DNA of 64,000 nt from Prochlorococcus sp. AG-363-P19 (GTDB taxonomy: Bacteria; Cyanobacteriota; Cyanobacteriia; PCC-6307; Cyanobiaceae), in contig QCGG01000004.1 of NCBI GenBank assembly GCA_003280055.1, positions 113,136-177,135 of the forward strand, in the 5' to 3' direction. The notes beneath the pieces are model-generated. The model saw only the letters and a program-made list of their open reading frames with translations, did not search any database and had not been told where the DNA came from. The first letter of the stretch is position 1, and each line of letters starts with the position of its first letter. Positions 4,979-32,794 of this stretch are shown piece by piece. Position numbers and translations under genes: made by a program.

Positions 4979-6472
4979 TTATTTTTTAGTGATTGACTTG
5001 AAATAGATTTGAATTTTTGCACCTCCAAGCTCTTCTGAAATACCAAATCGAATAAATCCACCTGTATCATCTACAACTCTTCTAACAATCATTAATCCCA
5101 GTCCCATTCCTCCAGTTGTTGATTTATATAGATTATATCCATTAGGTACAGACAATGGATCAAATCCCATACCACTATTTTCGATTTCAAAAATCACGAA
5201 AGAAGAAAAATTTATATTTATTCTGATTACACCATTTTCTCCTGCAGCAGTAATTGAATTTTTGAGCAGATTTCTTATTACAGCCTGCAATTGTATCTGG
5301 CCAGCTTTAATATTAGGGATATAAGAGTCTATAGTCACTGATAAATCCTGATCTAGGCGGTTTAATTCAGAAGCTAACTGTTTTTTTACTGTATTGACAG
5401 CGATCTCAAGATCGGCAAAATCTGTATCACGTATACCAGCTAAAGTTAAATCTTGAATTGATTTAGTATTTAGAACAACAGCATCAAGTTCCTTAAGGCA
5501 AAGCTTAGACTTATCAAGCAAATCGTTTCTAGAATTTAAATTACCATTTAGATTTAGACTCGAACCAAATTCTTGTACAAGTTCTTCTAAAAGTAATCTC
5601 AATCTTATTAATGGTTGTCCTATTTCATGTATTACTGCTCCCGATGCTTCTGCAGCTAAACGTGAACGCATGAATGTTTTCTCTTGATCAAGAGCTTTTC
5701 CGGTAGTTTGAAAGATCAATCCAAGTACTCCTATAGAAAGCAAAAGCCATGCAGAAGTTGATAACACTCTTAGGTCCTGAAGGGTGTTAAAAAGTTCGGG
5801 ATTTAGATTGATTCTTTCCAGTAAAGCCCTTTCGATATATGCCGCAGAAAACAAAACTCCCAAAAGAACAATTAAAGGGGCATAAAGATAGTTTCTTCGA
5901 TCTCTCCAAACAGCGTGTTTTATTGGTAAAAGCAATAAAATCAATGGAAGTATGATTAAAGATCCAATTGAATCTCCCATCCACCAAAAGAAAGAAGACG
6001 TAAACACTTCATCTAGTGAAGTTACTGATGAAAGATAATTTAATTTAAAAAGGAAAAATGTTAATGCAGCTAACCAATTACCTAATGGTCCAATCCAGAG
6101 TAAAAATGCAAGCAATTTATAAAAACTAGAAAGTGTGTCATCTAGCAAGTTATTTCGAAACAAAGCCCATCGCACCAAATAAGCCTGAAATGCAGCAGCA
6201 ATACATACTGGCAACATAAAAGTTTGGAAACCAAGTCCATTGCTGAGATCAAAAGCTGTTGCCAAGAGATTCCCAATAGCTAGTCCTGGGAAAACTATCC
6301 AGCCTTGAGTTATTGCTAATCCGTTAGCAAAACCTGCAGCTGGCCAAAGAGTTATGGCTGAAGATTGCCAGGTAAATAAAAATTTTGCAAAGATTGCGAG
6401 CAGTAAATATATAACTACTACTACAGCGTTAAGGCTTAAGATAAAAATTAATTTTTTAAATGTCTTGGTCAC
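4979..6472 (-). CDS. MASE1-domain sensor histidine kinase
   Basis: 497 aa. Residues 1-255 form about eight membrane spans with the look of a MASE1 sensor domain (TLWPAAGFANG early, paired aromatic/Gly helices). The kinase half has the phosphorylatable His282 in VIHEIGQPL, an H-box of the DctB/FixL HExxQPL type. An N-box (NLLKNSITAA, about 389-398) and a G-box (GGMGLGLMIVRR) follow. The start overlaps the response regulator stop by 4 bases, so the two are translationally coupled. The ligand is unknown. Prochlorococcus keeps very few histidine kinases, so a complete extra pair is notable. Confidence 0.93.
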   Translation of the reverse strand: MTKTFKKLIFILSLNAVVVVIYLLLAIFAKFLFTWQSSAITLWPAAGFANGLAITQGWIVFPGLAIGNLLATAFDLSNGLGFQTFMLPVCIAAAFQAYLVRWALFRNNLLDDTLSSFYKLLAFLLWIGPLGNWLAALTFFLFKLNYLSSVTSLDEVFTSSFFWWMGDSIGSLIILPLILLLLPIKHAVWRDRRNYLYAPLIVLLGVLFSAAYIERALLERINLNPELFNTLQDLRVLSTSAWLLLSIGVLGLIFQTTGKALDQEKTFMRSRLAAEASGAVIHEIGQPLIRLRLLLEELVQEFGSSLNLNGNLNSRNDLLDKSKLCLKELDAVVLNTKSIQDLTLAGIRDTDFADLEIAVNTVKKQLASELNRLDQDLSVTIDSYIPNIKAGQIQLQAVIRNLLKNSITAAGENGVIRININFSSFVIFEIENSGMGFDPLSVPNGYNLYKSTTGGMGLGLMIVRRVVDDTGGFIRFGISEELGGAKIQIYFKSITKK

Positions 6473-7053
6473 ATTTCTTTTGGCAAATTTCTGGCAAGAG
6501 TAACCAATGCAGAGCCTTTGAGTCCTAATTTCTTGGTAATTTGTCGTCTATGCGTCTGAGCTGTAGAAAAACTAATTTGCAATTTCTTTGCAATCATAGC
6601 AGTATCTAATCCATCACCAATTAGGCGTAAAAATTCTATTTGTCTTGGAGTTAGTATCGTTAAATCAGGAAGATTGCTATCAAGTTCCCTGGAGAGTTCC
6701 CAAATAGCATCCCTCAAAGGAGCCAAGCCATCAGCCTTGTTAATAAGTGAATGAACACTAGTTAGAAGTTTTGCAGGCAATAGATATTGCTCAGATTGGG
6801 CAGTGAGTATAAGAATGCGTCCTTGCGGGTTATGACTGACAAAAATTTCTGCGATTTCAATGCCAGAGCCGTCCGAAAGATGAAGGTCTAACAAAAGCCA
6901 ATCTGGTTTGTTCCTCTTTAAAAAAACTGTTGCGTCTTTTACTGAAGATACTCTGCTTATATCCCCTGCGGGCACATTGATCAAATTTGAGACTTCCTGA
7001 ACAAGAAAGTCCAGAAGGATTATGTCATCTTCAACAATGAGAACTTCTAGCAC
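6469..7053 (-). CDS. NarL/LuxR-family response regulator
   Basis: 194 aa. The receiver domain (1-120) has the acidic pocket VEDD (8-10), the phospho-acceptor Asp56 in WLLLDLHLSDGSG and the conserved Lys in INKADG. The C-terminal LuxR-type helix-turn-helix begins LTPRQIEFLRLIGDGL and includes SFSTAQTHRRQITKKLG. It is the first gene of a two-gene operon with the kinase and is therefore its probable partner. A perfect palindrome containing a NarL-type 7-2-7 sequence lies about 110-130 bases upstream of its start, which suggests autoregulation (inference). Confidence 0.94.
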   Translation of the reverse strand: MLEVLIVEDDIILLDFLVQEVSNLINVPAGDISRVSSVKDATVFLKRNKPDWLLLDLHLSDGSGIEIAEIFVSHNPQGRILILTAQSEQYLLPAKLLTSVHSLINKADGLAPLRDAIWELSRELDSNLPDLTILTPRQIEFLRLIGDGLDTAMIAKKLQISFSTAQTHRRQITKKLGLKGSALVTLARNLPKEM

Positions 7054-7159
7054 TATCGAATCACGTCCCTCAAAAGAATAAAGCTATTAGTGAGTAACTA
7101 CTTATAAAGTTGACATTAAGAATTCAGCATCAGCAAGAGAATAGGCCTATAACATCTAG

Positions 7160-7187
7160 ATAGCATACCCATTAATGGGTATGCTAT
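7160..7187. promoter_or_regulatory. Perfect palindrome with NarL-like 7-2-7 core (candidate operator)
   Basis: The 28 bases read the same on both strands. The core TACCCATTAATGGGTA is two TACCCAT heptamers in inverted orientation separated by TA, which is the 7-2-7 arrangement known for NarL/NarP sites in enterobacteria (heptamer consensus TACYNMT). It lies between the divergent response-regulator operon and the small gene starting at 7229, so it could control both. The sequence symmetry is directly seen; binding by the adjacent regulator is an inference. Confidence 0.7.
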
Positions 7188-7228: not shown

Positions 7229-7561
7229 ATGGCATATTTCCAATACTTCAGCCAAGTTCAAACCGATTGCCTGCTTAGTAACTTTGAAAGCTTGCTGGAA
7301 CAAGCTGGATTAAGGGTTTCAAAGGAATACAGCAATCAAGCTCAAATTTTTGCAGAGGACAAAAATCGTGAACAAGGTTGCCAAATAATTGTAAAAGTAA
7401 TAATTTCCTGGTCTGACAAAGCTTTGAGAAAATGCTCTATTGAAATCAGAAGCGACGAGCCTTACTCGAAAAGAAATACAAGGTGTGAAACCATCAACAA
7501 ACTTCTTCACTCAATAATCCCTCCACATGAAAGCTCAAAGAATCCCAAAAAACATGATTAA
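7229..7561 (+). CDS. Conserved hypothetical protein
   Basis: The ORF track starts at 7175, but that ATG lies inside the palindrome and the first 18 residues look non-coding. I prefer the ATG at 7229 (MAYFQYFSQ), giving about 110 aa. The protein is soluble, with an N-terminal helix (TDCLLSNFESLLEQAGL) followed by alternating strands (QGCQIIVKVIISW, RKCSIEIRSDEPY) and a charged tail. This resembles small cyanobacterial proteins of unknown function. It is four bases upstream of the next gene and is probably co-transcribed with it. Confidence 0.7.
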   Translation: MAYFQYFSQVQTDCLLSNFESLLEQAGLRVSKEYSNQAQIFAEDKNREQGCQIIVKVIISWSDKALRKCSIEIRSDEPYSKRNTRCETINKLLHSIIPPHESSKNPKKHD

Positions 7562-11310: not shown

Positions 11311-11344
11311 GTTCCGATTGAAAACAGTTGTTTTCAATCGGAAC
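11311..11344. repeat. Perfect inverted repeat after pcb copy 2
   Basis: Arms GTTCCGATTGAAAACA / TGTTTTCAATCGGAAC, 16 bp each with only two bases between, start 10 bases after the pcb stop codon. There is no T tract, so it is not a standard terminator. It may stabilise the pcb mRNA 3' end, as REP-like hairpins do (inference). Confidence 0.8.
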
Positions 11345-11350
11345 CCTTCC

Positions 11351-11396
11351 ATCAACAGAAAAAGCCCCGAATTTTTACGGGGCTTTTTCTGTTGAT
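11351..11396 (+). terminator. Terminator after pcb copy 2
   Basis: Long perfect stem ATCAACAGAAAAAGCCCCG / CGGGGCTTTTTCTGTTGAT with a short AT-rich loop. It follows directly on the 16-bp hairpin, giving two tandem stems. A/T tracts on both arms make it able to act for the minus-strand gene at 11421 too. Confidence 0.93.
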
Positions 11397-11420
11397 GGGC
11401 TTTGTAAAAGAGGAAACTTA

Positions 11421-32213: not shown

Positions 32214-32794
32214 CAGTTGTTGGGTAAACAGAACGAGAATCCCGCTTCGCTAATCCAACCGTTAAAAGGCACGTCCCAGGAATCACGGGGTAACGGATTA
32301 GATGATACGCAAACCTGTGGCAAGACAACAAGGGCAGGAATCGATCTCCAAGAATCATGACTTCTAAGACGATCAAAATAGCCACCACCATATCCAAGCC
32401 TTGTCCCAGCATTGTCAATTGACAATGCTGGGACAAGTAAAAGCTTTATATCTTCAGCCTGAAGACTAGGGCAGTGAATTGGTGCAGGAATTCCATGAAC
32501 ATCTTTTCCAAGAGACGAATCATTCCAAGCATGGTATGAAAGCCCGCCATTAAGCCCAGATACTGGCAAAGCCAATGAAAACTTGAGACAATTAGCCAAA
32601 GAACGCAAATCAATTTCTCCTTGCAATGGCCAATAAATCCCTATATACCCCTCTGACTTATTTTCAATCAAGAATTGTTCTAGGTAATTACAGACTTGCT
32701 TGAAAATTAATTTCTGAACAACTTGATAACTTGTATTTCTAAGTTTAAGGTAAAAACTCCTTTTCTCTTCCTTGATATTATCAACAGGTGTCAT
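32213..32794 (-). CDS. 5-formyltetrahydrofolate cyclo-ligase
   Basis: The track ORF starts at 32857, but the first 21 residues look untranslated; I choose the ATG at 32794 (MTPVDNIKEEKRSFY), giving 193 aa, the normal length. It converts 5-formyl-THF to 5,10-methenyl-THF with ATP. The ATP-binding motif DNAGTRLGYGGGYFDR and the N-terminal basic helix are visible. The folate context recurs in this window (folE, folD). The coding region contains a 38-base perfect palindrome at 32400-32437. Confidence 0.92.
   Translation of the reverse strand: MTPVDNIKEEKRSFYLKLRNTSYQVVQKLIFKQVCNYLEQFLIENKSEGYIGIYWPLQGEIDLRSLANCLKFSLALPVSGLNGGLSYHAWNDSSLGKDVHGIPAPIHCPSLQAEDIKLLLVPALSIDNAGTRLGYGGGYFDRLRSHDSWRSIPALVVLPQVCVSSNPLPRDSWDVPFNGWISEAGFSFCLPNN
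32400..32437. repeat. 38-base perfect palindrome inside the cyclo-ligase gene
   Basis: Arm CTTGTCCCAGCATTGTCAA is followed at once by its exact reverse complement, 19 bp each with no spacer. It encodes VPALSIDNAGTR in the reading frame, just before the ATP-binding glycine motif. Such a long spacerless palindrome in coding DNA is unexpected by chance. Confidence 0.9.

Follow-up and report, generated by a model that had tools for sequence, protein, structure and literature searches.

NarL of E. coli occupies its 7-2-7 sites in dimeric form. At frdA such a site, at -4/+6, is involved in repression (PMC4549865), while those lying upstream bring about activation (PMC7419079). The NarL consensus is TACYYMT-N2-AKRRGTA and an engineered narG -89/-89 palindrome, TACCCCTAAAGGGGTA, has been described (PMC7419079, PMC4549865). 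In the window analysed here, a stretch of 64,000 nucleotides from a Prochlorococcus genome, the centre of a long palindrome has the same geometry as the NarL/NarP sites and equals the engineered narG -89/-89 site at 12 of the 14 fixed bases. Like the frdA operator it is a 7-2-7 site near a transcription start, here a putative one placed from a -10-like element. Unlike the sites of NarL and NarP, which make up a regulon, it is one site per genome, found beside the regulator, and the physiology is unrelated. No paper on this two-component system in Prochlorococcus was found in the literature collection searched. The window genome contains six receiver-domain proteins and three GerE domains, in agreement with the first-pass annotation, which had supposed that there would be very few two-component systems. 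Prochlorococcus is poor in such systems, and the core links this kinase and regulator with a single small gene.

The palindrome and the genes on either side

The sequence ATAGCATACCCATTAATGGGTATGCTAT at positions 7160-7187 is a perfect 28-bp palindrome. At the local base composition about 4e-4 perfect palindromes of at least 28 bp would be expected in 64 kb, and no other copy with three or fewer mismatches is present in the rest of the window. The centre, TACCCAT (7166-7172), TA (7173-7174) and ATGGGTA (7175-7181), consists of inverted heptamers with a 2-bp gap and is an exact fit to the E. coli NarL/NarP consensus. The window sequence therefore bears out the earlier description of a perfect 28-base palindrome with two TACCCAT heptamers in a 7-2-7 arrangement. 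The features of the locus are as follows.

4979-6472, minus strand: membrane histidine kinase with a HATPase_c domain and a MASE1-like sensor that scores below the Pfam cut-off; shares 4 bp with the stop end of the regulator gene
6469-7053, minus strand: NarL-type response regulator with Pfam receiver and GerE domains and a GTG start; the closest PDB chain is NarL (1a04)
7105-7121, no strand: TTAAGA direct repeat with 11-bp spacing, the second element kept in relatives; its first copy is degenerate in the window (TAAAGT)
7148-7153, plus strand: candidate -10-like TATAAC for the small gene, its position inferred
7160-7187, no strand: perfect 28-bp palindrome, the outer 6+6 bp peculiar to the window genome
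7166-7181, no strand: core of the palindrome, TACCCAT-TA-ATGGGTA in 7-2-7 layout, probably the operator for the adjoining NarL-type regulator, seen in 14 of 14 loci with zero to two mismatches
7229-7561, plus strand: small gene of 110 amino acids (MAYFQYF...), divergent from the regulator, with the start ATGGC[AT]T kept in 14 loci

The regulator scores above the cut-off for both the receiver domain (PF00072, 42.0 bits) and the GerE domain (PF00196, 42.7 bits), which places it in the NarL/FixJ family, and amongst solved structures NarL of E. coli is the nearest to it; the first-pass annotation was thus right in assigning a LuxR/NarL-type regulator to the gene adjoining the palindrome. Against the NCBIfam equivalogs the scores were 51.6 bits for NarL (cut-off 250) and 30.9 for NarP (cut-off 343), neither cut-off being reached, which makes it a member of the NarL family rather than NarL itself. 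The kinase accompanies it in every orthologous locus examined. Besides the regulator the window genome encodes two GerE proteins, one of them single-domain; one of the two, L181, is presumably similar to Rre1/Ycf29.

The true start of the small gene is the conserved ATG at 7229, and the ORF start at 7175 within the palindrome is not real. The small protein belongs to no Pfam family, its NCBIfam match is sub-threshold and its sequence matches in the PDB are weak. A model based on two sequences (pLDDT 73) is β-rich, with weak fold matches (TM about 0.4-0.5), and no helix-turn-helix was seen in the predicted fold.

Conservation of the core and of the recognition helix

Amongst the comparison set of 300 genomes of the family we found 12 close orthologues of the regulator (63-72% identity) and a more distant one, with 53% identity, in G030; a search within the genera to which G030 and the window genome belong gave no new ones. 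Only one close relative, Prochlorococcus sp. AG-363-M17, is amongst the named genomes. Fourteen loci have the small gene beside the regulator or beside regulator relics, and the 7-2-7 core is present in all of them, eight times exactly, four times with one mismatch and twice with two. Its position is steady, at 104-126 bp from the regulator start across the cassette loci, and in pairwise comparisons the core columns are 92% identical as against 44% for the remaining spacer. In each half-site the TAC and the base at position five are invariant across the 14 loci, and TACYYMT is matched by 23 of the 28 half-sites. The first flanking pair is symmetric, as C-G or A-T, in 10 of the 14, while the outer six base pairs on each side of the window palindrome are unconserved. 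The expectation that the palindrome would be found upstream of orthologous regulators therefore holds for the 16-bp core, at one site per genome and with core and regulator both missing from G026, but not for the outer 6+6 bp, which are particular to the window genome.

The exact core occurs eight times in the 300 genomes, on every occasion in this spacer, whereas a reversed control pattern occurs once. In the window genome it is the sole such site, and the genome scan for TACCCAT-N2-ATGGGTA that had been proposed with the first-pass annotation returned the exact core only at this locus. In the 14 cassette genomes sites with two or fewer mismatches show no surplus over the reversed control; given this lack of an excess of near-sites, the predicted regulon is the cassette itself. 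No such site lies near any of 16 more distant paralogous regulators.

Within the recognition helix the stretch TAQTHRR and the IT that follows it are invariant in the 13 close regulators and in that of G030 (14 in total). The positions next to them show single changes only (in G100, G039 and G046), and over the rest of the protein the identity of the regulators falls to 53-72%. When aligned to the STVKVHVKHML of NarL, the regulator has Gln, Thr and Arg in place of Lys188, Val189 and Lys192 (K188Q, V189T, K192R). These are the residues of the NarL recognition helix that we take to contact the bases, so the regulator differs from NarL at those positions. The idea that DNA recognition has been conserved from NarL is therefore upheld as regards the half-site in the DNA and the family of the protein; with different residues in the recognition helix, recognition may be either inherited or convergent. 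With a near-invariant helix and half-sites variable at certain positions only, these loci provide a natural comparison for how NarL-family proteins read TAC-type half-sites.

A putative private operator

Taken together, these patterns of conservation make it very likely that the adjoining NarL-type response regulator has the 16-bp core as its one private operator. The partner kinase would phosphorylate the regulator, a dimer of which would then bind both TACCCAT half-sites. Since the core is just downstream of the likely -10 of the small gene, binding would most likely switch that promoter, and if the frdA site of NarL (-4/+6) is a guide the effect would be repression. Between the end of TATAAC and the core there are 12 bp; provided that the -10 is a genuine one, the core would then occupy about +6 to +22 of the small-gene transcript, where it could repress or gate.

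The palindrome begins 106 bases from the GTG start of the regulator at 7053 and the core 112 bases from it, so the core could also act on the regulator-kinase operon. The operator may control the regulator's own operon as well as the small-gene promoter, and the latter is at least as likely to be the main target, because in G039 the regulator has been relocated without the site while the small gene keeps it. In that genome the regulator-kinase pair is 12 kb away without a core of its own, and the small gene retains a core with a single mismatch, next to a regulator relic of 21 codons. Autoregulation, which had been suggested at the outset, may occur. Of the 13 close orthologues 12 carry the core on their upstream side, and G030 has a diverged form of it, but the spacer is shared with the small gene and the relocated regulator of G039 lacks the core. 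The core provides a 16-bp probe with which the target of the regulator could be tested in one gel shift.

Kinase, regulator, site and small gene stay joined while the flanking genes vary between most of the genomes. In G078 (L157) the regulator and kinase are nearest to those of G094, G039 and G016 (83-91%) and the small protein is nearest to that of G010 (77%), which suggests that the halves of the cassette have been exchanged by recombination at the spacer. A bolder and rather doubtful proposal is that of a transferable three-gene signalling cassette in Prochlorococcus, made up of kinase, regulator and a small protein from an undescribed family and insulated from the network of its host by one private operator, in which a half-site of the NarL consensus is read by different residues.

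The most serious competitor to a private operator, which we nonetheless regard as improbable, is that the core is bound by some other factor (the Rre1-like protein, the single-domain GerE protein or one as yet unknown) with control over the small gene, in which case the regulator next to it would be incidental. Two further GerE domains are indeed present in the genome, and the core stays with the small gene where the regulator is 12 kb away (G039) or absent (G104). The latter genome, 85% complete, gives no regulator match, and its small gene has two stops and a core with one mismatch. On the other hand, Rre1-type regulators are generally core to cyanobacteria, whereas the 7-2-7 core is confined to the cassette genomes and is missing from the many others searched. 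G026, which is 99% complete, keeps the small gene but has neither a match to the regulator nor the core; the argument from co-loss is that of this one genome. In G030, conversely, there is no small gene, yet a related dyad, TACTCAC-TC-GCGAGTA, lies about 93 bp upstream of the regulator with 53% identity; 26 of 20,000 shuffles gave an equally good one. Divergent from the regulator of G030 there is a gene for a long repeat protein (L098, 2231-3573), a possible alternative target, which presumably resembles a YadA-type adhesin.

Very improbable, in our judgement, is a role for the palindrome as a hairpin in the 5' leader RNA of the small gene, with an effect on stability, translation or attenuation. 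The transcript of the window genome would form a 12-bp stem (-26.9 kcal/mol, z -5.8) and the first flanking pair covaries between C-G and A-T. What is conserved, however, is the primary sequence and not the outer stem, and changes in the core break pairs while each half stays near one sequence. We rejected the hairpin as the main reading since the seven core pairs show no two-sided change, with unpaired cells in three. No Rfam family was matched. An origin by chance, or through an artefact of assembly or amplification, can be dismissed: a second long palindrome in the window (38 bp, 32400-32437) demonstrates that long dyads do occur, but against an expectation of about 4e-4 per window 13 other genomes, the single-contig G010, G039 and G078 amongst them, keep the core at the same place, and these orthologous loci rule out a chance origin for the core, if not for the outer arms, which by themselves could be accidental.

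Other elements in the spacer and the window

In about half of the loci TATAAx is found 12-14 bp to the left of the core, and the TA is invariant in the alignment. A scan of the spacer for sigma-70 promoters and terminators gave no matches. The second best conserved window of the spacer is the TTAAGA direct repeat, and all 14 loci have it, 61-64 bp to the left of the core. Cyanobacterial Pho boxes, bound by SphR, are CTTAACCT tandem repeats with 3-bp linkers (PMC1906773). The TTAAGA element is similar in that it consists of 11-bp-spaced direct repeats with TTAA, and may be a relative; it differs in that the repeat is TTAAGA rather than CTTAACCT and in having two copies, not three. It suggests a possible input site for a regulator of the OmpR/PhoB type.

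A hairpin-like sequence, GGTGATGGGGNTCAC, is located between the core and the small gene in G010, G078 and G209, and each of the ten genomes scanned has it once. In L174 (G275) the sequence stands ahead of a small-gene relic with a frameshift.

Further along the window two adjacent strong inverted repeats, with arms of 16 and 21 bp, lie at 11311-11398 after the second of three tandem similar genes of 350-361 amino acids, and are probably terminators. We take these genes to be related to the pcb antenna genes. The perfect 38-bp palindrome at 32400-32437, CTTGTCCCAGCATTGTCAATTGACAATGCTGGGACAAG, is inside an ORF of 214 amino acids on the minus strand, where such a palindrome is unexpected in that the sequence is coding; the ORF presumably encodes a protein resembling 5-formyltetrahydrofolate cyclo-ligase.
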